This document shows, one piece after another, positions 11,304 to 56,522 of a stretch of 64,000 nt of DNA. A program made the position numbers and the translations under genes. Source of the stretch: Sipunculus nudus (taxonomy: Eukaryota; Annelida; Sipuncula; Golfingiida; Sipunculidae). Below the pieces are notes generated by a model, which was not told where the DNA came from, ran no database searches, and saw only the letters and a list, made by a program, of their open reading frames with translations. The stretch covers positions 57,646,300 through 57,710,299 of the forward strand of contig CM049314.1 of the NCBI GenBank assembly GCA_026874595.1, written 5' to 3'. Positions within the stretch are counted from its first letter, which is position 1; the number at the start of each line of letters is the position of its first letter.

Positions 11304-12000
11304 TCTTTTTATATAATCCGACTGGGCCTTGGGGTTATAATACCAGTCACAGTTGAACATCTGCTCCATAGGTCAGATCAAAATATTGCCTGAATGGAAG
11401 TATTTCAAATAAAAACATGCAAAAGTCAGGTTATACTTGTACTGTGATTGAACATATACCTCAATATTGGGTGGTGCAAAACACCTCCTCTCTATTCTTC
11501 AACACCAGCTTTGTCGTGAGAAAGCGATCATTACGTTATTACCCGAGCGCTGTTATGAACAATTTATTCTTCTTTGACCATACAGTGGGTGAAACTGCGC
11601 TGGTTCTATGTGTACGGCAGTCTTGCATATCGTTTCTGAGGACACTTTTAAAGCTGAAGTGATATTTTTGTTCATTTGTGATGAAAACGCCTTTACTTAT
11701 CACAACATGTAAGTTTACTTGAGATGTGATATCTTTTAGTTATTTTTTTTTATTTCTCTACTATCGATGTCTCAGTATTTTATTTTCTTATTATTCTTTT
11801 CATCATTGACATCGGAGAAAAAAGAATGTGATGTCAACAGTCGTAACACTAAAATTACATATGACAGCATGTTGACAAAAAAATACTTCTTACGATCATC
11901 AGGACATGATAGGACTACCGTTCACGTGACAAATGTAAACAGAAGAGCGAGCGTGAAGTGGTGACAAATTATCTCGCTTCATACTAAAACGCTGCTGAAT
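11304..12000 (+). repeat. Repeat block shared with 32435-32895 and 34054-34740
   Basis: Three copies of this block exist in the window. All contain CCGACTGGGCCTTGG, ACCAGTCACAGTTGAACA, CTGCTCCA(T/A)AGGTCAGATC and GAAGTATTTCAAATAAAAAC. It lies directly upstream of the L1-like ORF1 remnant in both segmental copies, so it may be that element's 5' untranslated region (inference). ORFs in it differ in frame between copies, so I do not call a protein. Confidence 0.7.
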
Positions 12001-12160
12001 TTCAAAGTATAAATGTGCATATTTAATTCAAGTACTGTAGGGGCCTAAAACTGTGAAAGAAACCAAGCGAGAAAGTTTGTTTTAGCGAGTTAACATAGGG
12101 AGAAATCCGATTCGCTCCGATCCGATCAGCCACAAGAAGCCATCACGTCGCATAGCAACC

Positions 12161-12840
12161 ATGGAACCGGCAAACGACTCCAAGGTAACGCTTGAAGCTA
12201 TCTGGAAAAAAACTCTCACTTCGTGATAGAATGGAACATAAAATTGATAACTTGCACATGTAAGAGAAAAACGCTGGAGGCAAGAATAAGCGCCTTGGAA
12301 ATGGACAATGACCCACATACGAGAAAAACTGAATTGGTTCAAGCTGAAGTAAGACTTGGCAATAGTCCATGAAGCCGGCTCCAGCAAATAGCCTGACAAA
12401 CGAATTGAATATTAAGAAAATAAAGAAAAAAAAACAAGCTCCACAACCTACCGGAAATTCACGAGGAAACCAAAACAAGCCTGAAAACAAGAGTGACAGA
12501 GGTTTTGAAACATAAAAACAAACATCTTGATTCAGACCATGTACAAAAAGCGTATCGGCTCGAAACAAAACAGCAGCCAGCATTAAGTTAAGGCCCAAGC
12601 GACCCAAAAAGGGGATCGACTGTGTTGGTCACACTGTCAGCCGAAGAGCTCGTTGACGGGATATTAAAACATGGAAACAGAGCACTTAAATCCTAAAAAC
12701 AGGTAAATACAGAGTTGTTTACGATGTCTGTAAATATGCACAGGAGAAAAGAAGGGGCGACCATAGAAACCGGGCTTCAGCCTAACGCCGGTACCGATCA
12801 TAAGATATGCATGAAGTCATACTTATATTGTTCAATAGTA
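12161..12840 (+). pseudogene. L1-type LINE ORF1 remnant, copy 1
   Basis: Starting at ATG 12161 the sequence encodes MEPANDSKVTLEAIWKK and then, after frameshifts, pieces matching the copy at 34816. In that copy RIEHKIDN and KRIEYLENKGRSKNIKLLNL are readable. The second piece matches the signature after the coiled coil of L1/Tx1-group ORF1 proteins (RI..LE.R.R..NI...GLPE), which form trimeric RNA-binding chaperones. It continues into a C-terminal block with TLSAEELVDGILKHGNRALK. Several stops and frameshifts are present, so it is dead. It lies on the strand opposite the Tx1-like LINE just downstream, which has its own zinc-knuckle ORF1 in copy 2. This is therefore probably a separate element. 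Confidence 0.7.
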
Positions 12841-13079
12841 CATATTTAGTCAACAACGTGTATATTAAAACATGCAGGTCTACCTCGTTCGCAATAATTT
12901 AGTATCCACCCACGCTATAAGTACTGGGAAGTATGTCGTCAACATTACCAAATGTTTACATGCGACTCCATGTAACCCCGTGTGCACAAGGTATACCTAC
13001 CTCAAGCACAGTTCTTTTAAGGGGGTGGATTATAGCGTGGGTGTGAGGGCGCTAGCCCCCATTTCATTTTGGTTCTTAT

Positions 13080-15985
13080 TTTGAAATATTCGCATTATAT
13101 TTATTTTCATGTACACTTTTTTAACCTTTATACAGTGATACATTTCAACAGTCATATAAGATTTCATTTGAAAGGTACATCACATTCAAGATGTATGGGG
13201 CAATTCATGTGCAAAAGGTATATCGGGTTTGTTAAATTATCATATTTGTACTTGCTGATACATTTTTTTGCTATAAATATATATTCGTTTATAATGTCTA
13301 TGTAATGTTGTGTAAGTATTTCTGTTTTCTTTTACCCTAGCATTGTTTCTCTTTCTATTAGTGTTATCCTTTTGCATAGTTTAACACATCTGTCTTAGTT
13401 TCACACAGTGAAAGACGAAATGTCCCACAAATTCTATTTCACTGCAATAGAAACACCTGTTTGTTTCAGTCACACCACATTTTGGCAACATGATACGGGT
13501 AGGTTAGATGTTGAGGACGATTTTCCACTGTAAGACTCTTAATCTGGTTTCTTTAGTACAACTGTATATGTTTTTCCATAAAGTACTTCTCCAATTATAA
13601 TTTTTATATTTTTTGGTTCAAGAACTTTTGAATTTGGGGATTTAGGTCATCATTCGATAAAGATATTCTTATAGATCTCGGGGTCCAGTTACTAATTTCT
13701 TTATCTCTTAATAGAATAGGTGAATTTAGCGCCACCTGGAGGCTAAATGAGCTATGCAAGACATCTGTCTTTACTACGTTATATTTCTGCTTGACCCACA
13801 ATGATAAAATCTGTCCGTTTTGAAATATATCTTCAATGTAAATAACATTTGCTTTAATCCAGTCTCTGAAGAACAGAACCGATTATTTATGAGTAAATGC
13901 CTTATTATTCCATATAACCCTCGATCCATAATCATTTTCTCACATTATACTAGCTTTAGTTTATGTTAGACATGTGTTCCATCAATTTCTGTAGAAATTT
14001 TATTTTATTGGGTGTGTCCCTTTCATATTAATGGGTTTGATACTACTTTGAAATACAGAGAGATTGTTTCTCATTTTCCCAAAGTAGTATAACGGAATGT
14101 TTTTCATAGTTGTTTTATCTTTGCTCAATAATAATATTACCCATTTTTGGAGTAGGGCATGTTTTATATCATTTGCGTTAATACCTCCAGAGTCCACCAT
14201 TTTCATAATCAGATGACATTATTTTCCGTTCTACTTTTTCATATGCCCTTTGGTACTGATTTTTTTTTCTGCCAAATAAATTTGAAAATCATTTTATTAA
14301 TGGTATTTATAACCTTTTTAGGCATATACAAAGCTTGCATAATGCATACCATCTGGGATATAAGGAATTTTTTCACAAAAATTATTTTCCCTACCATCGA
14401 GAGATTTCTCTTTTCCCATTTCCTAATTTCTTCAAATATTATTTTACTCGAAGCTCTCAGTTGGTTTTTAATATCAGATGCCGGCTAACAGCTGCCAAAT
14501 TTGACTCCTTAAATTTTGATTACACAGTTTGGATAGAAATTCCATTTAATTTCTTCATATTTTTCTTGTTTACGTTTTAAGATCCCTACCCATATAGCTT
14601 CCGTTTTATTTGGTTTTAACGCCGTTCTAGAGACTTCTGTAAATTTCTTAATTTGTCTTAAGCATAATCTGATATCTGCTTGATCTCTCATGAACAAATT
14701 AACATCATCAGCATACAATGCATTTTTAACATTGTTCACCGAGTAATAGGTCAACGGTAATTTAATACCTTTTATTTCAGTTGTCTGTCTGATTTAAATT
14801 GCTATCAGTTCCAGGCCAAGAACAAAAAAAAAAAAAAAACCAGGAGAGAAAACACACACCCCTGTCGGACCTAACCATGAACTTGGAACATTTGAAAAGC
14901 CAGCCGTTGAGAGATATACAGTTTTCACTGCCATTGAATAAAACTGACACCCAATGAGCTGTATGAACTGCCAACCGAAACCTAATATCTTCATTGTCTC
15001 GAGTACATTTGTATATACTCTTTGTTAATCGAATCAAAGACGCTTTTAAAATCTAGCGTTATTACAGCACCAGAAATATTTTGTTTGCGTAATTTATGAC
15101 ATCGTCCATTTTTCGGATTATTGTAACAATGTTGCGAACTCTAATAAAACCCACGTGGTCTCGATTTACTATATCACTGATTACGGACTGCAACCTCATA
15201 GCGAGCACTTTCGCCAATATTTTATAATCGGTGTTGCAGAATTACACAATTCACCCTTTGGTTATTTTCCCCTTTATTCAGTAAATTAACACCCCCCCCC
15301 CTTTTTGTTGTGAAAATAACATTCCTGTTTTATATGCAGAGTTAACAGAAAAAGCACTAGGTATTTCACAGGTGGCCAAACAAATTATAAAAGAATCCGT
15401 TGTAAGTCCATGTAATCCCAGACTTTATCCTGTTTCATTTTTCTTAAGGCACTTGCAACTTCAGCCGAGAAAATGAAACCTTCACATTTCCCTTTCTTTC
15501 TTCATTAAGCCTTGGAATTATAAGGCCATCTTTAAATGAATTACTCTTGTAATTAAGTGGCCTGACTTCTCGTTCACTGTTATCTTTGCCTGATACAATG
15601 TCCGGAGAGTTAGCCATTACTGAATTAAAATCTCCTAACACTGCTATATAATCAGAGTCAGTTTCCTTAGATGCTATATTATCCTGTATTCTACGTAAGA
15701 ATTCGACATTTTCTTTATTTTCACAGGGCGCATATATATTAAATATTTTTCTCATCTGCCTATTTTTCTTGGAAGCATGCGATATTTATTTTGTTGCGTT
15801 TAATTTCGTTTATAATTGTGTTTCTTCTTATTTTGTTATATCTCAAACCATGACAATTTAAAATTACACTTACAACTGCAGTCCATGTATTAAACAAGTC
15901 CGTATAACTTTAATGCAAAGTCCGTACCAACAGGCAATGTTAGAGAAACGAAGCGTACAGCCGCTAAGCTGGCGAATCCTGCATC
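13080..15985 (-). pseudogene. Tx1-like non-LTR retrotransposon ORF2 remnant, copy 1
   Basis: Reading the minus strand, the order is endonuclease, then reverse transcriptase, then C-terminal domain. The apurinic-type endonuclease piece at 15444-15755 contains IFNIYAPCENKENVEFL and then AVLGDFNSV (about 15621-15635). The reverse transcriptase catalytic box reads ALYADDVNLFMRDQ at about 14680-14715, followed by LKPNKTEAIWVG. Further down, VSVLFNGSEN and LDFKSVFDSIN-like pieces lie near 14900-15060. The C-terminal part near 13080-13480 matches a short cysteine-containing tail. Many stops break it. The 5' end is cut at about 15985, where a DDE transposase pseudogene begins. Copy 2 (35690-39000) continues through the zinc-knuckle ORF1. 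Tx1 assignment is from motif resemblance; an L1-clade relative is possible. Confidence 0.8.
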
Positions 15986-15989
15986 AAAT

Positions 15990-17111
15990 TTAGTTTCTGT
16001 TCATATATTATGAATGAAACTGGTAATGTAGTCTTCTTTCTGGTGGGCCTCGTAACATCACAAATCACCAGGGCTGTCTGTTTTGCTTCCCCAGCACTTG
16101 GCATTGATGCGTCATTTACGGCACGAGGATTTTCTCGACAAATTCCACCATGGTCTAAGAAGTGCTCCAGTGATCGGGTGAGCATGTCACGTTACAGTTA
16201 CCTGGGAATGGGGCTGTAAGTAAACATCTGTTTGTTTTGCCGGCGTAGATGAGCTGGGGCAGTAAAAGTGCGCCCGTTTATGTCACGGACAAGAGGAGGG
16301 GGATCTGCTGTTTGCCATCTTTCCCCGCTATGGTCACCTACCTGTGGCACCTCTTTCTCTATTGTCCAATCTCCTCCAGGTTTGAGCTGGCAGCCTGTAC
16401 GGTCAAAGTTGATGAAAAGCTCATCAGTAAATATCGCCATCCTTTGTCGCTTTATCAATGCGCTGGAGGTACTCTGCCTTGATGGAGTCGAAATCGCTTG
16501 GTAGGTGTTTGACGTCCTTAGTTCCCTTCCGCTGAAAAAATCCCATACGGCGCAGCACCGTCCGGACCCAGCTCTATGTGATGACAATGGGGCCTCCATT
16601 ACAACCCAGCCGGGATGGTGCTTCTTTGCGGACTATTCCATCAGCTGCGGCTATAACCAATTTCGATGTAACGGCAGCACCATTATTAGGACATGCATTG
16701 ATGTAACGTTGCACTTTAACATTCAGATCTCCGAGCATCAGGTGTTGTCCTCGCAGGCTGCGTTAAAGGGTAGTTGGCTTACTGTAGAGCTGTTTTTTCA
16801 GCTTGACGTAGAGGTCACGAATGCTGCGCACGGTAGTCCCTGAAAGCCTTTCCCCCAAAAATTTGTGAACATGTCCTCTCAGTTTTGGCTACACCGATCT
16901 CGACTGCAGACCGTCCAATTTTGACTCTGTCACCGGCTGAGTAGTGTCCGCTTGCTGGTAGATGTGACAAACTCGCTGGACTCGACAGCGTTGTTTGCAG
17001 CCTCGAACAGGAGAGCACCCTGTTTTGTGTCGCAGTCCTGTGGATTTGGCAGGCATGACGAATTTGGTCGTTTACTGGCTTTGGGGATTTCAGCCAATTA
17101 AGGAGAGACAT
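15990..17111 (-). pseudogene. DDE-superfamily transposase pseudogene
   Basis: On the minus strand, three pieces in order match a DDE transposase family common in invertebrate genomes. An N-terminal helix piece GDRVKIGRSAVEIGVAKTE (about 16880-16950) resembles its DNA-binding start. A catalytic-core piece DELFINFDRTGCQL, then DWTIEKE (about 16360-16440), corresponds to the first-aspartate motif (NWDQTG...WT...G). In another frame, LLLPQLIYAGKTNRCLL (about 16220-16270) and TMVEFVEKILVP (about 16120-16160) match the next blocks. Frameshifts and stops separate them, so the gene is dead. It interrupts the Tx1-like LINE of copy 1 at 15985 and is absent from copy 2. The family is related in fold to pogo/Tc1-type enzymes; the exact superfamily name is uncertain. 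Confidence 0.65.
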
Positions 17112-17734
17112 CGTAGGCTATCTAGCAGAGATTTAGGCTGTAAACAAATGACGTAGTACAAAGTTGAGGTGATCGAAGTATGACTGACCAGGGCTATCAG
17201 GGGGATGTATTTATATTAAAGGGCCGTGCAGGTAGTCTCTGGTTCAAGTGATTGTGACAAAACACCCCGAAAAGAGCACATCTTTGCAATGATTGCAGGG
17301 GTGGGGGGGGGGGGGGTTCATAGTGGGGTTCCTTTATTGTCTTCGTTTTTAATATTGTGGGTTTCTCGGGATGCACGAGGGTTCCGATCAACATTAAAGC
17401 ACTGGGCTTCTTTGGGGTTTCACTGAGTTTCTTTGACCTGTTTATCAATTCGTGCACACGTTAGGGTGTAGGTGTCCCTCACAAATTAATCACTAGGACA
17501 AACACGGGATGAAACTACCACGGCCGAAAGGTAAGTTTTGTGTGGACGATATTATGAATTTAGATAGCAGCTGTCGACGTAAAATCATAATAATGTTATA
17601 AATATTTGACGTACTTCTGATTAATTTACATCCTCATTTCTGTTATTCATTAACTGTTGTTATCAATTATTTCTCGTAAAGTACAATTAAAGAATAAGGG
17701 GACGATAAGCTTAGGAGGATAAATGGATCAGCAC
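17112..17734. other. Flank of DDE pseudogene, no gene recognised
   Basis: Probably transposon flank plus unrelated sequence, including a poly-G run near 17300. Short ORFs on opposite strands (17197-17457 and 17226-17426) mirror each other. No terminal inverted repeat for the DDE element was found by eye. Confidence 0.45.
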
Positions 17735-18037
17735 GCGCACATCACGGCTAATTAATCTCTGTATAGAAGGCACAGAGGAAGCGGGCGTTCCTTGTTTGTA
17801 CAACACTTATGTAATGATTGCGCGGGAAGCACATAGTGTAATCTGGTAATACGTACCTAAATTGAGTTGCCGATGTATATGCCGATAATAAGCTCTTTTC
17901 TAAAGTATGTACGTGAAGATTTATTAACCACAACTTATAAAAATTTTCAGTCTCTTCCCACGATTTCAAAAACCACACGATATGCTTTTAGCACATAAAC
18001 CACGAAATTTTAAGCCGTGAAAATATCTGAATTTACA
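17735..18037. mobile_element. Partial TA-target inverted-repeat element (same family as 40200-41477)
   Basis: This aligns with the last 300 bp of the 40200-41477 insertion: TCACGGCTAATTAATCTCTG versus TCACGGCTGATTAATTCTTTG, then ACGATATGC, ACCACGAAATTTTAAGCC and the terminal ATCTGAATTTACAG. The end abuts TA and then the (TA)n tract. The other terminus was not located, so it looks truncated. No ORF is evident. Confidence 0.7.

Positions 18038-18105
<68 letters not shown>
18038..18105. repeat. (TA)n microsatellite
   Basis: Uninterrupted TA dinucleotides over about 68 bp, directly after the TA-target element terminus and before the fold-back sequence. Confidence 0.98.
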
Positions 18106-18106
<1 letters not shown>

Positions 18107-18141
18107 TTATAAGTGGTATAGCCGTGTTAGTCTGTAGTTGA

Positions 18142-18257
18142 AGCGAAAGTTAAGATAAACAGTGACGCCTTTTAGATAGACTAACTAGTTTATTAATAAA
18201 CTAGTTAATAAACTAGTTAGTCTATCTAAAAGCCGTCACTGTTTATCTTAACTTTCG

Positions 18258-18259
<2 letters not shown>
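18142..18259. repeat. Fold-back inverted repeat, 50-bp arms
   Basis: The left arm (18142-18191, starting AGCGAAAGTTAAGATAAAC) is the reverse complement of the right arm (18210-18259, ending TTATCTTAACTTTCGCT) with one visible mismatch in the CGCC/GCCG region. The spacer is 18 bp and itself repeats part of the arm (AATAAACTAGTT). The whole sits between two (TA)n tracts. It could be a hairpin-type miniature transposon or a snap-back product. Confidence 0.93.

Positions 18260-18302
<43 letters not shown>
18259..18302. repeat. (TA)n microsatellite
   Basis: A second TA tract of about 44 bp, immediately after the right arm of the fold-back repeat. Confidence 0.97.
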
Positions 18303-18306
<4 letters not shown>

Positions 18307-19079
18307 GATTCTCCTTATTATATACTTTTTAAATGAAATATACATATCTTCGTATTATTAAAAGTTTTTATATATATATATTACTTTTTATATTTATGTT
18401 TTTTTTAATTATGCAAATATTTTTCATTTGTTATACTTGCTTTATCTATTTCTTATTGCGCACCACGCTTGACTTGAACAAATATATGTATGTTCATCAC
18501 TCACCTCTCCACCATTTCTGCTTTCCCTCCCTTAACTGCGACTTTAATGTTAAGTTAATCCTCCTTCACATCCTTTTGTTTCCACCTACCGGTACTCGCT
18601 GTCTGTTATACTTTTTTCCATGTCACTTTAACCTCATTGTATCCACATCTCTCTCTATTTTGGAAAGGACGTTTGAAGACACTCCGTTCATTTCAACAAA
18701 TCTCATCCCACCTTAGTCAGAACATAGTTCTTTGTAAATAATATATTTCTTAATTCTTCTTCATAATAACATTTTTCTTTTTCCATTCAGCACCACAGTT
18801 TTATTCTCATTATCTTCCTATCATTATCACTCCCTTTCAACCCTCGTTTTACACGTTTGTTTCCCAAACTTACTTTTTCAAATCGAAAGATCTTTTAACC
18901 CCAATGTCACCCACGACTCTCACGGGAATGTCCGCCCCTCCCATGTTACACAAAATTAGTACCTATAAAGTCCAATAGGGGTCGCAACCGGTTCTAATTA
19001 CGTCACCACATTTCCCATGTGCTTTCACATATGATTTCACTGACAATAGAGTTAAATACCCCACTTTTCGCTTGCTTGT
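18303..19079 (+). other. Collinear non-coding block shared with 39607-40195
   Basis: Matches copy 2 through TTATGATTCTCCTTATTATATAC, the TCACTCACCT...CCATT block, CCCAATGTCACCCACGACTC and the CATTTCCCATGTGC block. The longest ORF (18333-18716) is low-complexity and not conserved in copy 2, so I do not call it. Confidence 0.7.
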
Positions 19080-19160
19080 AATTTGCCTTCGTGACTCAGT
19101 TGGTTACGCAGACGGCTTCTGGGCATACGGTCGGTGGTTCGAGTCTCCTTCTGTCTTGAT
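19080..19160 (+). repeat. tRNA-derived SINE head, copy 1
   Basis: An A-box-like TGACTCAGTTGG (19092-19103) and a B-box GGTTCGAGTCTCC (19136-19148) lie about 33 bp apart, the usual spacing of an internal RNA polymerase III promoter. The intervening sequence does not fold into a proper anticodon arm and no acceptor-stem pairing is evident, so this is a tRNA-like SINE head or tRNA pseudogene, not a working tRNA gene. The copy at 41515-41585 has the same boxes. Confidence 0.6.
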
Positions 19161-20330
19161 ATCATTGTTATTGATATATCACGTTATGCTCTATATACCA
19201 ATGAGTCATGTCTCTATTCAATTCCAGATTAGCAACTTCAGGGTTACGCTAACAATGGTGATCAGGGAGTTTAGAAATGACATAGATATATAAGCCTTAA
19301 CGAAATATACGTTTCCCCGAAAAAAACTAAAACTCAAGTTTTACTCTATCCATATCAATTATATCGCCCTCTTTAGCTAGTTCCTTGAACCAAGATGAAG
19401 CAAGCGTACTATAGTCGCTCCCAAATCAGATATAACGCAACCTCAGCACGCCAGGAAATACCTATTATTTATACCGGTATGTCATTCATTCATTAAGTTT
19501 TTATCATTGAAGTGACTCGGACATTTATTTTCAAGAATATACATCCTTTTAATTTAAGTTTAGATTCATATTCAGAATATCCTTCGGTTAGATTTTCTCG
19601 AGGCCATAAGTTTTACAATACACATATAAACTGTAAATATTTATATGAATTTACCTTACATATCACATCATCATTTATTAGGCGGGCAATATGCAAAATC
19701 ATAAAAAAAAACCATAAAGAGGCACATCCAGTATTAAAGTATTAATAACTTATATCATATCATTTTTATACGTTATGCAGTAATTCTGTATAAATCATTA
19801 ATGATAAAAAGGACACTCAGCTTCAAATTCAAGAATCCCTTTTAATTTGAACAATGATAGGTTATCAGTATAAATTTCCAATACTATGTGTGAATGTGCA
19901 TGACATCAGTAAATATGTAAGAAGCAAGAAACTTTTTAACTTTTTTACCAAAACACAACCTTGAGAGAGATGTCAGTTTCATACAGGAAACTCATTTAGT
20001 AGAAAAGAGATTCATTCTTTCCACAGACCCTACTATTAATTTGTTTATAACTGTCACTTCATGATTTCTCTTTTCAAGATTTAAGAAATATTTTGAGCTG
20101 CGCTCACCCTGCTCATACCACTGCTCATACAACTGGTAAGGCTGAATGGTCTGTTTCCACACAAGGTATTATCTCACAGTTCGTAACAGAGGGTTGCAAA
20201 GTCACTGATATAAGAAAATTGTCTAATATACGTTATGTAAGTGGATTTAATCTCCTCCAAGTAAATCCTTTAATATTTGGGTTACGTAGTCGGCATTTAT
20301 CACACAGATCAAATGTTTGAAGTATTGTTT
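19161..20330 (+). other. Collinear non-coding block, probably SINE tail and old repeats
   Basis: Aligned with 41586-42700 in copy 2 (for example CACTCAGCTTCAAATTCAAGAAT, GATTTAAGAAATATTTTGAG and CTGCGCTCACCCTGCTCATA). ORFs in it are short and not conserved. Some text near 19950-20030 (GAAACTCATT, AGTAGAAA) may be eroded LINE sequence. Confidence 0.5.
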
Positions 20331-21300
20331 CCATGGAGTCAATACTTGAATCTTTAAAAAGTATGCTAAATTAAAAAAAAAACACCAGAGAATGATGGAA
20401 TATCAAAAGAATTGTACTTTAGTATTTTTAATGAAGTAGGTTTAAAAATGACTGCTGGTTTAAATGAAGGGTGTCAATCAGGGAGAGTTATCAGAGAGCA
20501 AAAACAAAAAGTAATTAAGGTTTTAGAAAAACCAGATAAGAACAAAAGATATATAGAATCCTTGAGACCAATAAGCTTAATAATTGTTGACTGTTAGGTG
20601 TTATGTAAAATTCTTGTTTCACAATTGCGTAAGGTTTTGCAAAACTTGGTCCACTAAGTTCAGAATGCTTTTGTTCTAAATATGTTTATGATATATTGAT
20701 GGAACAAAAATCAACTGCAACCTCTTCATTGGTCCAATTAAGAGATACAATACAGGATGATAATATCAACTGGGAGAGTTACTTTGGAGCAACCCAAATA
20801 ATGTCATGTGATATGTTCTCAGAGGAATTCTTATTTAAAATACTCTACAACTATTAACCAACCAACAGTTTACTATACAATTGAATTTTAGTTGATAGTT
20901 GCCGATGTTCTTATTGCTTCATAAATTTTGAGACCAAGGAACACATATTTTTATGAATGTTTTGTAACAAAAAGTCTGTATTTTAGAATTGTGGATTTGA
21001 TGAAAACAAATGGAGTGATAATGCCACCATTAACCTTGTCCACAGTATTGTATAGAATGTTTTCAATTGAGAATAACCTTTTAAATCAGGTGCTCCTTAC
21101 ATTTAAAATGTGTGTATATCAAAGTAAAAAGGACTTTTTACTTTTGATCAGAACACAAGCAATTTAAAGCCAGAATTTTTAAGGAGGTTGAAATATATAG
21201 AAGAAATTATAAGGGTAAAACAGAAATATAAGATTACTGCACATTTGGAAAAATGGGAAAAAATAAGGAAAACAATTAAAAATACAGCAGCATTGTAGTT
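20331..21300 (+). pseudogene. LINE reverse transcriptase/C-terminus remnant (+), internally deleted, copy 1
   Basis: A plus-strand remnant encodes the start of a LINE reverse transcriptase: KMTAGLNEGCQSG, then KRYIESLRPISLI (20412-20597), the ESWRPISL-type block. At about 20680 it jumps to the LINE C-terminal part, where CSYCFINFETKEHIF and the following block (about 20900-21167) match the zinc-binding tail of copy 2 (44905-45132). Compared with copy 2 the segment equivalent to about 43270-44700, including the FADD catalytic box, is missing. It ends in an A-rich stretch near 21250. Stops and frameshifts show it is dead. Confidence 0.75.
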
Positions 21301-21369
21301 TTAGTATTGCAAGAAAAATCAAGGGGAAAATATGTTCTGTAAAGACCACTAAAATATATGTATATTGTG

Positions 21370-21640
21370 GTATATTGTGCTAAGGCGATGAGTTCCGGAA
21401 TCGACCAGAGTTACCTCCAGGTTTTGGTAGAGAAGAGGCCAGACCTTGACCTCAGAGAAAAAGACCAGGATGGTGCTAAGCACACGGAGCTGAGCATTTG
21501 ACCGAATAAGCACGTCTTCTCACGCTGGGGATCGATGTTCTTCAGTCTCAGGAGTGAGTACCTTTGTAGAGTAAGATACGCTGTACTCAAACTGGCGGCT
21601 AGTCTATTTGGAGCAGGATAATATTTCATAAACGAGGTCG
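21370..21640. repeat. Conserved GC-richer block shared with 45370-45640
   Basis: This block is better conserved and more GC-rich than its surroundings. The minus strand is open for 72 codons in both copies with mostly conservative differences (21411-21629 and 45412-45630, both starting MKYYPAP). I do not recognise the peptide. It could be an exon of an unknown gene, a transposon leader or a promoter region. Confidence 0.4.
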
Positions 21641-22679: not shown

Positions 22680-22686
22680 ATTCATC

Positions 22687-23300
22687 ATGGCATTGAACGT
22701 GTGCACGGCAACTGTTCCGGAACTGGTTCTTGGCTGCCATTTGCTTTGACTTGTGATTCAGTTCAAGCCTAAGTTACCATACGCAAGGTTAAGCCTGAAT
22801 TTCTTGTTCAAGACCTGGAGAAGGTTACCAACTACCCTTCCTCTGCTTGGACAAAATTGATCTATGATGGTTCCGTCATTATAACTCCTGTGCATACTCC
22901 AGGAGTTTGAAGCATAAAGTCAGAGATCTCAGTCCTTCAAACCAATCTGTACCCGGGTAATGAATGTGAAACAAATGTTATGCGCTCCCATGCTGCTGTT
23001 ATATGGGGCAGAGACAGAACTGTGGCGTCAAGTCAAGCTGCAAACTCCAACTCTGATAACAAAAATGACCAAATTATGTATGCTTTGCCAAGAAGCAATA
23101 TTTACCACCGGCGGCCAGATGAGCCACCACCAGTTAAGCAGGCTACAGGATATTCAAATGGCATGCAATATAATTCTGAATTTGTCCTTGACAGAACATG
23201 GCCACCTGTTGGAAACATAGATTATTGTCTATTCCAGTTTGCTTGTGGGGCCACTGAGTCCGTAGAATTGTCAGTGAAAAATCTTGCGGATTAGTCGGCC
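22687..23300 (+). pseudogene. Unidentified coding-like remnant, copy 1
   Basis: The translation here and at 46298-46910 keeps the same peptide text across copies, although frames are broken: VTI(R/H)KVKP..FLVQDLEK(V/I)TNYP, then a threonine/proline turn, KSEISV.QTNLY.GNE, TNVM(R/H)SHAA, LTKLCMLCQEA and GPLSP. That fits a formerly coding segment of about 200 residues. I do not recognise the family. The LCMLCQEA segment places two cysteines as CX2C but no full zinc finger is evident. It could be a transposon ORF1, a gag-like protein or an exon of a host gene. Confidence 0.4.
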
Positions 23301-26241: not shown

Positions 26242-26284
<43 letters not shown>

Positions 26285-45640: not shown

Positions 45641-46288
45641 GTTATTAATTTGGTATGTCAATTTCGTTCTTGCTTTTATCCTGCTCGCTACATCCTCTGT
45701 AACTCGGCCCATCCTAGATAGTCCGCTGTGAGTGCTGCTAATATTGTATGCAGCAGCAGACACGGACCGCTCTGTTATTTTGCCAGCAGCCTGTTCTTTA
45801 CAGGAAGGTTGTCATTATTATATATTTGTTTAATTGATACAGTCACGTTACGATTTTACGTCACTCGTGTGTATTTTGTAGCAGTCAAAACGTCAGATAC
45901 TGTCAATTTCGTACATAACCAATTGGCGCACCATGTACACCAGTCCCCTTATTATTATAATCTGATCAACTCTCAGTATATTAAACTTGATAAATTATTA
46001 AAGGAACTAAATTTCAATTGTATTCATACTAATAAAGAATATTTCCCCTTCCATAGAAACCTGCTTATTGAATATATTATTTTTTTTCCAAGTGTGTTTA
46101 GGAATATTCTTAATGTGATTTGACATTATTCTTAGTACATCTGTATACTTTCTTAATTATTTCTTACTAGACAAGCTACAAAGGCCCTTTTAATAAGTGG
46201 TTTTGTAGGCTGATTCGCTAAAAATTAGCCTCTTGGTTTCAAACGATCTCTCTTGTAATTGTCTATAGCATAAGAGAATTTATTCACC
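45641..46288 (+). other. Collinear block, no gene recognised
   Basis: Matches 21641-22680. The 131-codon frame at 45728-46123 is not kept open in copy 1, so I do not call a gene. Confidence 0.45.
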
Positions 46289-46910
46289 TTGTTCATCATG
46301 GCAATGAACGTGTGCACGGCAACTGTCTCGGAACTGGTTTCATGGCTGCCATTTGCTTTGACTTTTGATTCAGCTCAAGCAATAGTTACCATACACAAGG
46401 TTAAGCCTTTGCAATTTCTTGTTCAAGACCTGGAGAAGATTACCAACTACCCTGCTCCTGATTGGACAAAATTGATCCATGATGGTTCCATCATTATAAC
46501 TCCTGTGTATACTCCAGGACTTTGAAGCATAAAGTCAGAGATCTCAGTCCCTCAAACCAATCTGTACTCGGGTAATGAAACTGTAACAAATGTTATGCAC
46601 TCCCATGCTGCTGGTATATGGGCAGAGAAAGAACTGTGGGGTCAAGTCAAGCTGCAAAATCCAACTCTGGTAACAAAATTGACCAAATTATGTATGCTTT
46701 GCCAAGAAGCAAAATTAACCATCAGCGGTCAGATGAGCCAGCACCAGTTAAGCAGGCTATAGGATATGCATATGACATGTAGAATCATTATCAATTTGTC
46801 CAAGACAGAACATGGTCACCTGTTGGAAGCAGAGATTATCTGCTCCAGTCAGCTGGCGGGGCCACTGAGTCCGTAGAATTGTCAGTGAAATATCTTGCGG
46901 TTTAGACGGC
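46289..46910 (+). pseudogene. Unidentified coding-like remnant, copy 2
   Basis: An open frame from 46289 to 46525 reads NVCTATVSELVSWLPFALTF, then IVTIHKVKP and FLVQDLEKITNYP, ending PVYTPGL at a stop. The same and neighbouring frames continue with KSEISVPQTNLYSGNE, VKLQNPTLVTKLTKLCMLCQEA and a GPLSP end. Copy 1 keeps the same peptide text with its own breaks. Family unknown. It lies 1.4 kb after the LINE tail and about 5 kb before the synthetase. It may be a separate element or a lost exon. Confidence 0.4.
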
Positions 46911-47186
46911 CCATATTCTCAGGAATGTTGAAGTTACATCTTTTCTCATCTATCAACATTGCGGTGTTTACAACAATGTTGTTGTTAAACAAGTTCAGAG
47001 AACCTTCATGGAGGCCTTATAAGAACTTTCAATGACCGGAATTCCCCTTAATTCACTTATATATACACGCAGAGGAAGTCAGAAAGCACATGAATTCTTT
47101 CTTTTATATCATTCTTTGTACTGCATGTGTAATTGTTATTGTGAAACCCATATTTTTAAAGTACTTCTAATTTTTCTCAGTTTTTT
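46911..47186 (+). other. Collinear flank up to the 3.6-kb insertion
   Basis: Matches 23300-23575 (AGGAATGTTGA(G/A)GTTACATC, GAGGCCTTATAAGAACTTTC, AGTACTTCT). The shared sequence breaks at TTTTTCTCAGTTTTTT. Confidence 0.7.
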
Positions 47187-50100
47187 GCTTGCCGGAAATC
47201 TTCGATTTCTGCAAGCAGGTTGGTCAGTCGGGGATGTCTGTTTGTCTGTTTGTTGCTTGCCGGAAATCTTCGATTTCTGCAAGCAGGTTGGTCAGTCGCG
47301 GATGTCTGTTTGTTTGTTTGTTTGTTTGTCTGTCTGTGTACTCTCTACAGGCCACAATTTTCCAGCAATTGCTTTCAAACTTATACAGCTGGTAGACAAG
47401 CAAAAGTCCTCGAGGCCTATTGTTATTGGGCGACATAGGTCCAAGGTCAAGGTCAAGGTCATCAAAACTTCTCAAAACGGTTTTTTCTTCATATCTTTGT
47501 AACTGTTAGTGGTATCTTCTTCAAACATAGCTCATTTTAAACGTCATTCCAAGGCCTTTCTTCTGGTGTGTAGCTCTTTCAAATTTTTCGTAACCATGGT
47601 TACACATTTTGGGGAAAAAGTCGTGATATTCTGAAATAAGGGGTCTTATTTTTCTAACTTTGTCAGTTTTAAAGCTAGAGAGGTCTAGTTTTTTGCATCA
47701 GGTAGCATTTAACAAGTACTGCAAGATTTTATTAAAAGTCTTGCGATATCTCGTGCAATATCTCGTCAAACGAGATATTTTCGAGATTTCAGTAATCTTG
47801 CCCTGGAGGCCACAGTTTTGCAGGAATCTTTTTGAAACTGGCATATCGTAAGTCCTACTCTATTATCTCGAAATTAATTTTTCATTTTTTTAATTCGGCC
47901 GCTAGGGGGCGCTGGGTGAAAACCTCTACAACATATCATGTTTTGGCAATATCTCCAAAATTATAAGCCTCAATTACAAAAACTATAGTTTATTTTTTTC
48001 ATCTAAGTCTTCTTCATGAACTCGTTTAGTCATCTGGTCTCAATCTTGTGTCACTTTGTCTGTGTGTCCGTCTGTTTCTTAGTTGTCCTCAAATTCGCTT
48101 GCTTGCCGGTTCTTGCGTCTCACATATAGCATTCTACAGGACACAGTTTTGAAAGAATCTTTTTAAAACTATTACATCTTATGTCTCACACTAATATCTC
48201 GAAACCGATTTTTCATTTTCAAGAATTGGCCGCTAGGGGGCGGTGCACTCAAACTTGCACAACATATCATTTTTTGGCCATATCTCCAAAACTGTTAAAC
48301 TCATTTACATAAACTATAGCTTATTTTCTTCCTCTGGGTCTTTCCAAAAACCTGGTGTATTCATTTGGTCTCAATCTTGAGTCACTTTGTCTGTGTGTCC
48401 GTCTGTTTCTCAGTTGTCCTGAAATCCGCTTGCTTGCCGGTTCTTGCGTCTCACATATAGCATTCTACAGGCCACAGTTTTGAAAGAATCCTTTTAAAAC
48501 TATTACATCTTATGTCTTACACTAATATCTCGAAACCGATTTTTCATTTTCCAGAATTGGCCGCCAGGTGGCGGTGCACTCAAACTTGCACAACATATCA
48601 TTTTTTGGCAATATCTCCAAAACTGTTAAACTCATTTACATAAACTATAGCTTATTATCTTCCTCTTAGGTTTCTTCATAACATGATTAAGTCATCTGTT
48701 CTCAATCTTGGGTCAGAATGTTTGTCTGTTTGTCAGTTTTCCTCAATTCGCCTGCTTCCTGGTTCTTGCGTCTCACATGTAGCATTCTACTGGCCACAGT
48801 TTTGCAGGAATCGTTTTGTAAATTACACTTGTCATATATCGTGATGATATCTGGAAGTCCTATGTTTATTATTCAAATAAGTCAAAGGTCAAGGTCAAGG
48901 TGATCAAAATATATCACAATCTTATTTTCTTAAGAACTTAGTTAATATTGGTTCTTTCTTCACAAACTATGGATTATTTTCTTTTACTTTGACACTGCTC
49001 GTTCATCTGACTAACTTTACATCATTTCCGGCAAGCGCGTGACCTCAGGTCATCTAGTTTGTTTGTTTGTCTGTCTGTGTACCCTCTACAGGCCACAATT
49101 TTGCAGCAATTGTCTTTAAACTTATACAGCTGGTAGACAAGCAAAAGTCCTCGGGGCCTATTGTTTTTGGGCAATACAGGTCAAAGGTCAAGGTCAAGTC
49201 ATCAAAACTTCTCAAAACGGGTTTTTCTTCATATCTTTGCCACTATTAGGCATATCTTCTTCAAACATAGCTCATTTTAAACGTCTTTCCAAGGCCAGTC
49301 ATCTGGTGTGTAGCTGACTCAAATTTGCCGTAACCATGGTTACGAATTTTTGGGAAAAAGTCATGATTTTCGAAAATAAGGGGCCTTATTTTTCTAACTT
49401 TGGCAGTTTTACAGCTAGAGAGGTCTAGTTTTTTGCATCAGGTAGCATTCAACAAGTACTGCAAGATTCTTTATAAGTCTCGTGATATCTCGTATAATTT
49501 CTCGTCAAACGAGATATTTCAAGATTTCAGTAGTCTTGCCCTGGAGGCCACAGTTTTGCTGGAATCTTTTTGAAACTGACATATGGTAAGTCCTACTCTA
49601 TTATCTCGAAATTGTTTTTCCATTTTCTGAATGCGGCCGCTAGGGGGCGCTGTATGCAAACCTCCCCAACATACAATGTTTTGGCCATATCTCCAAAACT
49701 GTAAGCCTCAATTACAAAAACTATAGCTTATTTTCTTCCTCTGGGTCTTTCCAAAGACCTGGTGGATTCATTTGATCTCAATCTTGAGTCACTTTGTCTG
49801 TGTGTCCGTCTGTTTCTCAGTTGTCCTCAAATTTGCTTACTTGCCGGTTCTTGCGTCTCATATATAGCATTCTACAAGCCAGTTTTGAAAGAATCCTTTT
49901 AAAACTATTACATCTTATGTCTTACACTAATATCTCGAAATAGATTTTTCATTTTCCAGAATTGGCCGCTAGGGGGCGGTGCACTCAAACTTGCACAACA
50001 TATCATTTTTTGGCCATATCTCCAAAACTATAAACCTCATTTACATAAACTATGGCTTATGTTTTTCCTCTGGGTCTTTCCAAAAACCTGGTGTATTCAT

Positions 50101-50801
50101 TTGGTCTCAATCTTGAGTCACTTTGTCTGTGTGTCCGTCTGTTTCTCAGTTTTCCTCAAATCCGCTTGCTTGCCGGTTCTTGCGTCTCACATATAGCGTT
50201 CTACAGGACACAGTTTTGAAAGAATCCTTTTAAAACTATTACATCTTATGTCTTACACTAATATCTCGAAACGGATTTTTCATTTTCCAGAATTGGCCGC
50301 TAGGGGGCGGTGCACTCAAACTTGCACAACATATCATTTTTTGGCCATATCTCCAAAACTATAAACCTCATTTACATAAACTATAGCTAATTATCTTCCT
50401 CTGAGGTTTCTTCATAACATGATTAAGTCATCTGTTCACAATCTTGGGTCAGTTTGTCAGTATGTTGTCTGTTTGTCAGTTGTCCTCAATTTCGCCTGCT
50501 TCCTGGTTCTTGCGTCTCACATGTAGCATTCTACTGGCCACAGTTTTGCAGGAATCGTTTTGTAAATACACTTGTCATAAATCGTGTTGATATCTGGAAG
50601 TCCTATGTTTATTATTCAAATAAGTCAAAGGTCAAGGTCAAGGTGATCAAAATATATCAAAATCTTATTTTCTTTAGAACTTTATTAATATTGGTTCTTT
50701 CTTCACAAACTATGGATTATTTTCTTTCACTTTGACACTGCTCGTTCATCTGACTAACTTTACATCATTTCCGGCAAGCGCGTGACCTCAGGTCATCTAG
50801 T
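47187..50801 (+). mobile_element. 3.6-kb repeat-built insertion with GCTTGCCGGAAAT ends (Helentron-like candidate)
   Basis: Present only in copy 2; copy 1 reads straight through at about 23573. The left end is GCTTGCCGGAAAT and the same word appears inverted as ATTTCCGGCAAGC near the right end (about 50767-50779), followed by GCGTGACCTCAGGTCATCTAG. The left 75 bp is itself repeated (47187 and 47262) and folds as GCTTGC.GAAAT...ATTTC.GCAAGC. The body is two tandem units of about 1.74 kb (from about 47331 and 49071), each holding subrepeats of about 330 bp with GTCTGTGTGTCCGTCTGTTTC and GGCCGCTAGGGGGCG. AGGTCAAGGTCAAGG tracts recur. A T-tract borders both sides. No protein is encoded. Class is inference. 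Confidence 0.8.
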
Positions 50802-51338
50802 TTTACATCTTGGCTTGAAGCAAGGATTGATCTGAAGACTGGTGAACTTGACTTTGATCGTCAAAGTTAGGAATTTTCGGAAATACAGAAATTAATGTTT
50901 TATCATTTTCCTTATTCTTTTAAGTACTACATATTTTCCCAAAAAAAATGATATAAAAATTTTAAAGGAAACGGTTTTGGAAGAGATTGAAAAAAAAATG
51001 TTGCCGTGACCTGGCAAAGGATAAACTTATTCTTCAGATTCTTATAAAAAGTGTTATACCCAATGTCTAGGGTTAAAACGGGATATTTTGTGCCAGAAAT
51101 GTCTAGGTTTTAATTTATTTAAATTCGGATTAATGAACATGAAATTACAATTAAAAATATTTCTAACAATATTTCGTATTCTCCTTCCATAACAAGACAA
51201 AAATTAAGGAGACTAATGAGTAAAACATCTTTTCATATAAAAAAATCATTATCTGACAATAAAATTAATGTATATGGTGTAGTCTATGATGATAACACAT
51301 TTTTCTTTATTTTCAATGTTTCAGTTTTAAAGAGCGAT
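50802..51338 (+). other. Upstream flank of synthetase copy 2 with candidate 3' splice site
   Basis: Resumes the match to 23575-24099. At about 51304-51325, CTTTATTTTCAATGTTTCAG is a strong pyrimidine tract plus AG just before the ATG region. Confidence 0.5.
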
Positions 51339-52985
51339 GAACCAGAAGAGCTACATCAATAATCCACCATCAGTTCCTCTCCTTTATACAACATGGCCGG
51401 AACTGTTAGATTAACATGTCAAGAAAACCCCCACAAGGTGGCGCTAAAGATTTACACAGAAGATATGAATTCCGATTCGCTGACATACGCCGAACTCCAG
51501 CAGAAATCTCTGGCGGTTGCTACTGTTCTCCGACGCTTGGTGCCTGAACTGAAATATGGGAACACGGTAGGCATTATCGGTGCTAACTCGTGCGAACTGC
51601 TGATAAACATACATGCAGTATTCGCTCTAGGCGCCGTGATTGTGTCTATTCCACATTATGTTAAAACAGCTTAAGACCTACGTCTCTTCCTGAAATCAAC
51701 ACAGTGTAAATTATTGGTTTTCCAGCACGGTTGTTTGGATTCCTCCACATTGGGTCCAATAGAGGAGTAGGGTACCAGACTAGTTCCTTATGGAGATAAT
51801 GGTGAGGAGGACATCAATGGAATTAGATTCCTCCGCAAACTTCTGGACGATGTGACTTGATCTGTTGTGACTGATACTAAGAAGTTGAAAAATGAAATTC
51901 GCCCCGATTTCGCAGCCGCAGTATTTTTTACTTCAGGGAGTACTTGCGTGCCTAAAGCTGTCACTTACTCACATTTCCAGATGATTAACAATGTCCAGGT
52001 TTTCGGAAAACAACTACAGCTTGCGCAAAACGATATATTCTTCAACGACAAGGCCACTGTCCATATCGCGCCATTCCTATGCATACATTGGTTTCTGGTT
52101 CCAGGACTGTGCTCTGTCTGTCTGGACACTCATCTTACAAAAACCGACATAAAGACAATATTTAAAATCACAAAAAGAGAAAATTGCACCGTTTCTCTGG
52201 CGTTTGGTTATGTTCTCTACGATATGCTGAACGCCGAAATATTAGCAAAGCAATACCTAAGTTCCCTAAGGCTTCTCATCACATCAGGGCAGACGTTGAA
52301 CGAACGAAAAGCATCAGAATTCCGACGGGTGCTACCAGATATTTGGCTAGTTAATGGGTTTGGGTCAACAGAAATAGGATACGCTCTGATGAATCAGGAA
52401 CGATTGGAGGAGCAGGAAGACGGCTTCATAGGGCCGCCCCTGCCGTACTATGAAATGAAAATTGTTGGAGATCATGGTGAAACATTACGACTTGGCGAAA
52501 TTGGCGAACTGCATATAAGAGGCCTTTTAATGGCGACGGGGTATATGCGTGGAGACAACCAACAGGATCTGACGTCACGGGAGGGGTGGTTTGCCACCGG
52601 TGACATGGCCGTGTTGAACGGTAGCGGTCATATCAAGATCGTAGGCAGATGCACTGAAATAATCAAACGTGCTGGGATTAAAATATATCCAGCAGAAGTT
52701 GAAAATGTAATTTGTGAACATTCTGAAATCAGTGATGTCCAGGTGTTTGGCGTCCCCGACGAGCGCCTAGGAGAAGAGATTTATGCATGTGTGATTCTGC
52801 AGCATGGCAGCATGATGAAGGAAACGGATTTGTTGGAAAGGTTCGCTGAAATATTCAAAGATTCCAAAATTAGAGATTACAAGGCCCCTAAGTATGTGGA
52901 ACTATTTGAAGATTTTCCACGCCTTCCTTCTGGAAAGGTATTCCGAAAAAGATCTCAAGGCAGAAATCCTTGGGCGTGTGGGCTA
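51339..52985 (+). pseudogene. AMP-binding acyl-CoA synthetase pseudogene (copy 2)
   Basis: Second copy of the ACSF2-like enzyme. The start MNQKSYINNPPSVPLLYTTW is kept, but a stop follows (about 51411) with a 1-bp deletion just after it. Three more in-frame stops lie near 51672, 51767 and 51858. From 51867 the frame is open to the end and is not shifted where copy 1 is. Motifs: FTSGSTCVPKAV, where the loop glycine is cysteine; VNGFGSTEIGY; GWFATGDMAVL; GRCTEIIKRAGIKIYPAEVE; PRLPSGKVFRK. A 1-bp insertion right after that lysine motif (about 52945-52952) replaces the normal C-terminus and runs the frame to 53063. With four stops, a P-loop change and two or more indels this copy is clearly dead as a full enzyme. 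The 398-codon open part could at most encode a headless protein. Confidence 0.9.
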
Positions 52986-53490
52986 GAACAAGTTCATATT
53001 ACTTGTATATGTGACATTTGCATCACAGCAATGAAAGGATATACATTTAAAATACTAATATGATATATAAAACATAAATATCACTGTAGATAACTCTGAA
53101 ATGCGCCTCTAATTCAGCTGTGAGTTTCAGCTTTTGCTATTATTTGTCAAATATATTATTAATATTATATATTATTTTGGGCAAAGGAAGCATTACATGT
53201 TCTTTTAAATTCTAAAACAAATTCTTTTTCAGCGAACGTGTTAGCTTATGGGATGTTGTGTGGCCTTATCCCTGGTCAAAATGTTAATTTTCAAGTAAGA
53301 TTCCGGTTGTCTCAAAGATTAAATGAAAGCGATCAGCGGCTTATTCCGTATAGAATGTAAGGATTGAACATAATGACCTTTAAAAATCTTTAAAAATACC
53401 TAAGACAATATAAATATTCAAATTCTAATTTGATTGTAAACATTAAAATGTGACAAATATACCTATACATATATGATAAAAGTAGAGATA

Positions 53491-53541
<51 letters not shown>

Positions 53542-53816
53542 TTTTATGAGGATAATTATCAATAAGATTTACGCTGATAATGTTTTTCAGGTTAGAGCGT
53601 TATTGTTGTTTATCAAGTTCAAGAACGATTAATGATATAACCAATCAAGTGTCCGTGTTTGCAAAAAAATGGAAAGTGTCACCAGTAAAAATCTCACTTT
53701 ATTATCTCGTGAGGTTTGATTATGCGTGGACAACAAATTGCCGGGCTCCACTTGTCATTTTGTCGGACTAATTCGATGGCTATAACCCTTGTGCGAATCA
53801 AGGCGGAATGCATTTT
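52986..53816 (+). other. 3' flank of synthetase copy 2
   Basis: Collinear with 25749-26553, including a (TA)n tract at 53494-53538. No gene is seen. Confidence 0.6.
53494..53538. repeat. (TA)n microsatellite
   Basis: TA tract at the position equivalent to 26244-26281. Confidence 0.95.
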
Positions 53817-55115
53817 TAGATCAGCTGAACATAGATCATTTGAGTCCGTGGTACGTAATGCCGTCTGTCCGGTCGTCCGTACATAAACAAAGCACATATC
53901 GTAACCGTATGACCTAGAAACTTCTTACTTGATATCAAAGTAAGCCCTTGGTTAATCTCCTTGCATACTAAATGTAGGTTCCTGTGACCTATATTTTACG
54001 AGTTAAGCGCGTTTTTCTGTGTTTTCCGCAGTTAAAAATCAGAATTTTTTTAGTCTTTTTGGATGCAACACAAAAATTTTGCACTCAACCCTTAAACTAA
54101 AATATATTGGATCATCTGCACATATTACGTTGTAACCATGCAAAATGAAGAACATCGTCCTAGCCAGTTCTTCAGAACTGCTGTGGACACATTGCAAACA
54201 ATTTAACATTTTCAGCTTTTTATGTAATAAGTATGAAATTCGTACTTAAGATAAAATATCTCAGTAATGATTGTATGAATCTTTCTGAAACTCGGCAAGC
54301 TTTTTGACCATTGAAAGTCCTTTCAACTCTGGAGACTAGCTGTAGAAGACTGGTGTCAAGATCTACATTTTCTTTATTTTTGTCCATTTCTTTCTTGTAT
54401 TAATTGTACACAGAAATAACGCAAGCCAGTTAATCGGTTAATAAGACACAAATCGTTACCGACCTAAAACCTGTTCACCTAATATTTAGTTAGGTCCTTT
54501 GTAAGGCTCCTGTTATCCTGTATAAGGCTATTTATGTGTTTTAAGTACATTTAGTTTTGGGTAAAAATCAGTCTCATGTTAGGGTTGTGGGCTACATAAC
54601 AAAACACTTGCACTCAACCCTATACCTAAAACATTGTGCATCATCTGCCCATATAACAATGTTACCATGCACAACATTAAGAAAATCAGCGGGGCTTGTT
54701 CACCAAAGGTATTTCAGACACAGTTTCAAAACGTTACATTTTCAGCTGTTTATGTATGAAATTCATACTCATCAGTAACATCTCAGTAATACTTGCATGG
54801 ATCTTTCTGAAATTATTATTAGCCATGGTAAGTCCTTTCAACTTTGAAAGACTGGTTGCGCCATCTTCATTTTACACAATTTTTAATGTATTTTTATTTA
54901 GAAATTACGGACGGCCAAATGTTAACGAAGCACAGATTGTAACCGCTTGACCTATAAACATCTTACTTTAATTAGGTACTTAGTAAATCTCAGAGCATAC
55001 CAAAACTTAGGCCATTGTGACTAAAATTTTGCAAGTTACACCAATTTTTGTGTGAATTTTACACAGAATAATATACACACTGATCAAGTCAGCTGAGCGT
55101 TATTACCAGTGGGTC
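53817..55115 (+). mobile_element. Non-autonomous element with TCAGCTGA ends and two internal repeats, copy 2
   Basis: Same element as 26554-27820, inherited with the segmental duplication. The head TAGATCAGCTGA has lost the exact GCTC. The end TCAGCTGAGCG is at about 55088-55098, followed by AGTGGGTCACTTG. Compared with copy 1 it has a small extra stretch near 54008-54070. No ORF with family resemblance. Confidence 0.7.
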
Positions 55116-56522
55116 ACTTGTTTTTTGGTGTGTTGAATAACTGCTGCTATTACATTTTGTGTTTTTGTTTGAGAAAAGAGAGATTCCTGTACATTTATAT
55201 TTGATTAATGTAAGAAATAAAAGTAGGAGGGCTCCATAATATTTTTTTGTTTTATTTTACCTTTATAGGTAATATCATACAAATTTCATGAAGTTTAAAG
55301 AAATCTATTTTTTTAGAATATTCATCCTCCTCCATGACAAACTTATGGTCTTGTAATACGACATAAATATGAGGGTTTTTCAAATTATGACTATATATGC
55401 AAAATTATCGGCATATAAACTTTACTAGCTTGATACATAATCGTAGCATGCATTATTTAGGAACAGGATGAAGTAAAAAATCATCTGGACCTGAGTATTT
55501 AAACTGCAACGCTTACCAAGATTAAATGAATTAATTTTATTAAAAGCAGTCAGATATAGGCCACACCAAGCATAGCGCCATATCGCCACATTACGACCAG
55601 ATTAAGTAGGCTTATAAGCCAAATTATCATTGCCTAAGGAGTCGGGTTGTTACGGTTACACCAAGCTTTAATTGTTGAACTGATTTTGGGAACAAAAATA
55701 TGGTGCGAGAGGGAATTTTGAAAGTTTACAAGGAAACGTTCAAAGATTCACTTTAGTTCTCGGATTGTTGCATATCATTTGCACCAATTAAGTTAATTTT
55801 CCATAACTTAAAAGTTATTTTAAGGAATTGAGCACATACCCGCAACATTACCAAAGACCTGGTCTTCATTAAAAAAATAATATCTATAAGAACGGAAGCC
55901 GCGAATCCGTAGACATCTGTGATGTTCCTAAGTGTACACGGAGATACTGAGTATGTTGCAAACAACTCTATTTATATAACATCAAACCCTGTTGTGCCTT
56001 GCCCGCTGCCATAATTGAAACGTGCTTCAGTCTTATAACTGAAACTTACTAACTTCAAGTAGAGATGCGGACCAGACCAGTCTGGCCAGTCACATAAAGG
56101 GTCCGGTCCTGGTCGAATCCAATAGGTATACCGGTCAAAGCGGACCGATTCATTTATTAAAATATCATTAAAATAAATTTAAATTGTAGTTTTTTTAATT
56201 CTGTTTTATTGTACATAATTTCTCTTCATATATATTTGTTCGAATATTTATTAAAGCGGAATATTATTTACATAGCAAACCGTTAAATGAATGTAATATT
56301 ACAATCTGTACGTGAATTGCAAGATCTGGATATGAATTTTTATTAACAAATTGAAATGACAATCTTTGTAAAGAATTTAACAGCAGTGGAATAATTTGTG
56401 ATACTGTGTGAGGCATTATGGTTATAATATAAACAAAATGGTGCATGGTGGACAGGGGCGTCAATACAGCGGTGGGGATAAGCGGTCTGGTATTTTGTGT
56501 TAGCGGTCCTGGAACGGTCCAG
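55116..56522 (+). other. Collinear 3' part of segmental copy 2
   Basis: Matches 27821-29215 with moderate divergence. The stretch at 28730-28860 is shortened here (about 56060-56160). No gene recognised. Confidence 0.65.

Follow-up and report, generated by a model that had tools for sequence, protein, structure and literature searches.

A probable old tandem segmental duplication in Sipunculus nudus, with tiered divergence and a likely gene-conversion tract

Results

Two collinear blocks in direct orientation

Herein, we describe two blocks, A and B, in a 64-kb stretch of the Sipunculus nudus assembly GCA_026874595.1 (contig CM049314.1, positions 57,646,300–57,710,299), referred to below as the window. 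The blocks (A, 11295–29215; B, 34044–56522) are very probably the two copies of an old local direct (tandem) segmental duplication. Divergence between them falls into tiers, and we favour, with somewhat better than even confidence, interlocus gene conversion between the copies over approximately 22.0–28.5 kb of A. An acyl-CoA synthetase-like gene lies within this stretch and is broken in both copies. The tiers with their likely conversion tract, the likely double pseudogene and the instability of the inner edge of B are what the present analysis adds to the initial annotation of the window, which had reported the duplication.

11295–29215, plus strand: block A, the left-hand copy (self-BLAST, more sensitive alignment, MAFFT)
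34044–56522, plus strand: block B, the right-hand copy (self-BLAST, more sensitive alignment, MAFFT)

Self-BLAST of the window placed 14 anchors longer than 200 bp on the main diagonal between A and B, all of them ordered and on the same strand, from 11304/34054 to 29215/56522. The initial annotation had counted more than ten ordered anchors, and the matches do form one broken diagonal rather than a scatter of repeats. Off-diagonal matches of at least 100 bp between A and B numbered three in total: one (17914–18044 to 41352–41483) adjoins a TA run, and the other two connect subrepeats near 27 kb and 54 kb. With MAFFT, the whole pair fell into one collinear chain, interrupted by ten indels of 156–3614 bp and by one replaced segment (A ~15997–18270 versus B ~38126–39560), whose ten aligned pieces were 43–52% identical. 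The largest indel was split by MAFFT into gaps of 2966 and 648 bp and appears as a single insert in BLAST. Identity was 83.2% over all 14,904 aligned sites and 87.0% over 13,490 sites once the replaced segment was set aside, and it was not uniform along the blocks. BLAST of block B against block A returned 117 matches with an expectation value (E) ≤1e-5, subrepeats and TA runs included; none of 20 dinucleotide-shuffled versions of B matched A at that threshold. Neither self-BLAST nor the more sensitive alignment found a third copy of the block in the window. Within the replaced segment of A, positions 18142–18259 hold an inverted repeat of 55 bp, nearly perfect, with 8 nt between its arms and TA runs on either side.

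Two collinear copies of at least 1 kb thus lie close together in the same orientation on one chromosome, as in a segmental duplication. The classic definition also asks for at least 90% identity; the pair as a whole, at 87.0%, lies below this value, and only A 22007–28458 averages above 90%. Because of the order, the shared orientation, the proximity (4.8 kb), the divergence of 7–16% by zone and the many indels, we infer an old tandem or near-tandem duplication. The initial annotation had likewise read the blocks as an old tandem duplication and not an assembly echo, with copies diverged by substitution and large indels, and the zonal divergence and the ten indels of at least 156 bp fit that description.

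One could instead suppose a false duplication, in which the assembler laid two haplotypes of a single locus end to end. The blocks are just 4.8 kb apart with many large indels between them, and a 99.4% identical tandem copy at 31155–34515 could well be an assembly error of this kind. However, divergence of 13–16% is extreme for alleles, and the pair shows 13% overall and 16% in its left part. Moreover, alleles of one locus ought to share their flanks, whereas the flanks of A and B match only in TA runs. We regard a haplotype artefact as highly unlikely.

Block edges, flanks and spacer

The right edge is the same in both copies, as had been noted before: the 18-mer GGTCCTGGAACGGTCCAG ends at 29215 in A and at 56522 in B. 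Sharp ends had been claimed on both sides. Those on the right stayed in place with the more sensitive alignment, while those on the left moved from 11304/34054 to 11295/34044, where the common left end of both blocks starts with TCTTTTTATATA.

29198–29215, plus strand: GGTCCTGGAACGGTCCAG, right edge of A
56505–56522, plus strand: GGTCCTGGAACGGTCCAG, right edge of B
29216–34043, no strand: spacer between the blocks, 4.8 kb
31155–34515, plus strand: recent tandem duplication repeating the left end of block B, with units from 31155 and 32896

Sharp ends might also suggest that the block is one large mobile element with a captured synthetase gene, either a giant rolling-circle or a cut-and-paste element, that inserted twice. 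The right-end 18-mer contains the inverted repeat CTGGA-ACGG-TCCAG, and the identical start of the two copies points the same way. Against this, no terminal repeats, target-site duplications or Helitron ends were found at the block edges with words of at least 9 bases within 100 bp (shorter target-site duplications were looked for by eye only). The two ends of A share no such word in either orientation, and those of B share a single 9-base inverted match. The terminus reads CCAG, whereas Helitrons end in CTRR. For protein evidence, 135 stop-to-stop ORFs (open reading frames) were hand-picked from 256 listed (262 before low-complexity filtering), satellites excluded, and scanned against Pfam at E ≤0.01; no transposase or helicase family was found among them. 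Finally, two insertions in the same orientation and 4.8 kb apart would need a coincidence. A giant mobile element was rejected because no terminal repeats were found where the blocks end, and its probability is, in our judgement, a shade lower even than that of the haplotype artefact.

The flanks of A and those of B had no match to each other beyond TA runs in self-BLAST or in the more sensitive alignment. Nor does the spacer recur, TA runs aside, to the left of A or to the right of B; its one weak match is to A 26217–26629 (56% over 422 bp; more sensitive alignment). Since 4.8 kb intervenes, the copies do not meet in a clean head-to-tail junction, which counts against a simple tandem event. 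Either the duplicated unit was longer, spacer included, and one end was later lost, or the spacer was inserted afterwards.

The inner edge of B is unstable, in that a tandem copy repeats the start of the block. Its units, 31155–32896 and 32896–34515, are 99.4% identical over 1427 bp by self-BLAST, and the left edge of A also matches 32435–32896, which is part of this recent copy. At the right edges, the peptide that crosses the edge of A (29101–29364 and 29152–29364) had no Pfam match, which leaves a cut of B inside an exon there conjectural. A plasmid search with 29120–30000 returned nothing. The sequence right of 56522 seemed to us to resemble the interior of a DIRS-type retroelement, and four ORFs there had no Pfam match.

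Divergence between the copies falls into tiers

Divergence was computed zone by zone along A. The zones cover 13,127 of the 13,490 sites, with 363 sites at A 18271–18799 omitted.

A 11295–15996: 16.3% (591/3626)
A 18800–22006: 16.0% (447/2787)
A 22007–24099: 11.5% (192/1672)
A 24100–25748, synthetase gene: 7.4% (122/1648)
A 25749–28458, non-coding: 7.8% (207/2665)
A 28459–29215: 14.3% (104/729)

The similar stretch and its counterpart are as follows.

22007–28458, plus strand: low-divergence stretch in copy A, proposed gene-conversion tract (8.7%; left flank ~16%, right flank 14%)
46017–55768, plus strand: low-divergence stretch, counterpart in copy B (includes a 3.6-kb insert found only in B)

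The best changepoint was at A 22007, with a log-likelihood gain of 81.3. When blocks of 100, 250 or 500 were permuted, 1000 times each, no permutation attained this gain; the highest, 66.3, came at block size 500. The step persisted once the gene was removed (0/1000 for block sizes 100 and 250). At A 28459 divergence rises again, with weaker support: of 2000 permutations, 9 matched this second step at block size 50, 13 at 100 and 47 at 200. Small gaps per aligned kb followed the same pattern as substitutions, with 14.6, 11.1, 7.2 and 13.6 in the four zones taken in turn.

Coding constraint was considered as the main cause of the similar stretch and was ruled out, since the non-coding DNA there is equally similar. 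The non-coding zone 25749–28458 was indistinguishable from the gene (Fisher p 0.68) and distinct from both the left part (p 2e-31) and the far right (p 3e-7). With divergence in the core non-coding DNA (7.8%) so close to that of the gene (7.4%), conversion is more probable than constraint on the coding sequence. Divergence in the stretch thus lies below that of both flanks and beyond what coding constraint would give, with a right flank that is short (729 sites). Such a stretch can be explained by interlocus gene conversion or by a crossover history of greater complexity.

A two-step history without conversion would also produce a younger right part: an old duplication, after which only the right part was replaced, through a younger duplication or through unequal crossover. 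The strong step at A 22007 agrees with it, as does the weakness of the evidence for an opposite step near A 28459. On the other hand, the last 729 sites on the right are again 14% diverged (104/729), so that the younger part is flanked by older sequence within one collinear chain. We consider the two-step history unlikely, and conversion is the simplest reading because older sequence lies on both sides of the younger part in that chain, even if the right flank is short.

Several points weigh against conversion. The leftmost 2.1 kb of the similar stretch shows a divergence between the two levels (11.5%), which suggests that the edge of the tract is no single clean step. Gaps of at least 30 bp numbered 4, 6, 4 and 0 in the four zones, an unclear contrast. 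Regional differences in mutation rate, or duplications of different age, would also give tiers. The C-terminal part of the synthetase gene has a ratio of nonsynonymous to synonymous divergence (dN/dS) of 0.50, and a period of constraint on that part of the stretch is possible. The events can be polarised only with a third copy or an outgroup. Lastly, 6.4 kb is long for a conversion tract, yet not unheard of. In a study of human segmental duplications (PMC3790853), conversion tracks had a median of 198 bp, 1.6% exceeded 5 kb and the maximum was 15 kb; these are tracks of full identity.

An acyl-CoA synthetase-like gene broken in both copies

24100–25748, plus strand: acyl-CoA synthetase-like gene, copy A (AMP-binding and AMP-binding_C), frameshift near 24757
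51337–52985, plus strand: acyl-CoA synthetase-like pseudogene, copy B, ends set by alignment to copy A

In both copies, the Pfam domains AMP-binding (PF00501) and AMP-binding_C (PF13193) scored well over their gathering thresholds, and we take the gene to be an acyl-CoA synthetase-like member of the ANL superfamily. No intron was seen in the coding part. Neither copy has an intact reading frame: copy A carries a single frameshift, near 24757, and copy B carries two (near 51420 and 52950) and four in-frame stops. The lone frameshift in A may have arisen in assembly. When the C-terminal part of copy A was compared with solved structures, the top chains were luciferases and acyl- or aryl-acid ligases (best 60 of 184). 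Since no NCBIfam model reached its cut-off for the three synthetase pieces among the matches listed (25 per piece), the exact subfamily was left unnamed. A viral search with the synthetase found no relative.

Between the copies, dN was 0.066 and dS 0.103 (ratio 0.64), with a ratio of 1.0 in the N-terminal part of the gene. Judged from these values and the lesions, the pair fits two pseudogenes, one of which perhaps died late. A search for further conserved exons by the codon-position periodicity of substitutions found none that was convincing among 215 windows; the best (chi-square 9.3) lies within the synthetase gene.

Mobile-element relics and inserts

14512–15241, minus strand: reverse-transcriptase relic, copy A (2 of 4 scanned ORFs match RVT_1, both below the gathering score)
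36781–37044, minus strand: reverse-transcriptase relic, copy B (1 of 3 scanned ORFs matches RVT_1, E 1.2e-7, above the gathering score)
13485–14338, no strand: 854-bp segment found only in A, terminal repeats not found
40199–41479, no strand: 1.28-kb insert found only in B, whose two ends form a perfect 16-bp inverted match, flanking TA included
43269–44698, no strand: 1.43-kb segment found only in B, with an FADD motif whose surroundings look reverse-transcriptase-like by eye
47187–50800, no strand: 3.6-kb insert found only in B, two tandem 1741-bp units, 92% alike

The Pfam scan of the 135 ORFs returned RVT_1 twice, AMP-binding once and three weak matches (E 0.0016–0.0089) that were judged to be chance. 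Both copies share the reverse-transcriptase relic, and because it occupies collinear positions in A and B, it predates the duplication. A further retroelement relic, of an RNase H, lies left of A at 11046–11204 (RT_RNaseH, E 1.6e-8). The insert at 40199–41479 is presumably Tc1/mariner-like in form, and no transposase was identified in it. Among the ORFs scanned in 43269–44698, none had a Pfam match; an ORF at 16201–16632 on the minus strand, which seemed transposase-like to us, likewise had none. Each unit of the 3.6-kb insert contains subrepeats of ~330 bp. The description of the blocks as transposon-rich is documented in part only, by the shared relic, the insert with inverted ends and the repeated 3.6-kb insert. 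Scans of the window with Rfam, at the gathering threshold, and for tRNAs gave no matches.

Tandem duplications with the same 1741-bp offset occur at 31155–32896 and at 47316–49057. The two have no BLAST match to each other, and the shared offset was taken as coincidence.

Proposed history and comparison with known systems

The following order of events would explain the locus. It would begin with an ancestral segment of ~18–23 kb in which an acyl-CoA synthetase-like gene lay together with a retroelement relic that was already old. Through a local error of recombination or replication, a copy would then have been placed beside the original in direct orientation. As the copies drifted, they would have acquired substitutions and the ten large indels, ~2 kb would have been replaced, and the synthetase would have decayed in both. 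A later ectopic exchange, by interlocus gene conversion and perhaps in more than one event, may have reset divergence over A 22.0–28.5 kb to about half. The 3.6-kb insert in B would have followed the conversion, and the tandem duplication of 1.6 kb at the inner edge of B would be the most recent step. The collinearity and orientation of the blocks, the levels and steps of divergence, the lesions of the gene, the relic common to both copies and the recent inner tandem copy are observed; the tandem mechanism, the sequence in which the events took place and the conversion are deduced from them. A more specific version, in which a single ancient conversion of ~6.4 kb between ageing tandem copies was centred on a synthetase gene perhaps still under constraint at the time, is offered only tentatively, as we doubt it more than we credit it.

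The pair resembles the tandem segmental duplications of animal genomes in its direct orientation and closeness, and differs from them by its 13% divergence and its 4.8-kb spacer. In a survey of vertebrate genomes, tandem duplications were favoured over interspersed ones and tended to be larger, and most duplications were ~1 kb (PMC13431229). Beside the duplications typical of that survey, the A/B pair is large. As in interlocus gene conversion of paralogous segments, a stretch of lowered divergence that includes non-coding DNA lies within an older pair. The stretch is, however, ~6.4 kb long, against the median track given above for human segmental duplications (PMC3790853), and is itself old, at ~8% divergence. 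With the acyl-CoA synthetases of the ANL superfamily, the A and B genes have both Pfam domains in common, while their reading frames are broken.

A duplication of this sort is an ordinary kind of genome event and leaves general understanding unchanged. The locus serves as a worked example of how tandem duplicates age, with the death of the gene in both copies, large indels, a likely exchange and fresh tandem growth. Such an exchange would reset part of the divergence clock, and dating by the most similar part would roughly halve the apparent age. If a long ancient conversion did take place, the locus would record several ages: that of the duplication, that of the exchange and that of a fresh round of tandem growth at its inner edge.

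Other features of the window

The window has 37.6% G+C and only five ORFs of at least 200 codons. These few long ORFs, the long minisatellites and the retroelement relics give it a eukaryotic character, and its general look suggests an invertebrate. To the left of A lie two minisatellites. The first (1–2438) has a unit of ~77 bp. The second (5575–10234) has ~47 units of 99–100 bp, which group by fours into a higher-order period of 398 bp, and one frame stays open across several of its units (173 and 238 codons). An unclassified 1.3-kb repeat occurs outside both blocks at 3048–4344 and 61981–63285, on the same strand and 63% alike; a larger duplication that would include these two sites had no collinear support, and they were taken as a dispersed repeat. 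To the right of B, an intact ORF of 449 amino acids (60186–61535) encodes leucine-rich repeats (LRR_8, E 1.1e-11). A viral search with it gave one match of 26 residues, and a putative Ig-like stretch and membrane helix were recognised in it by eye only.

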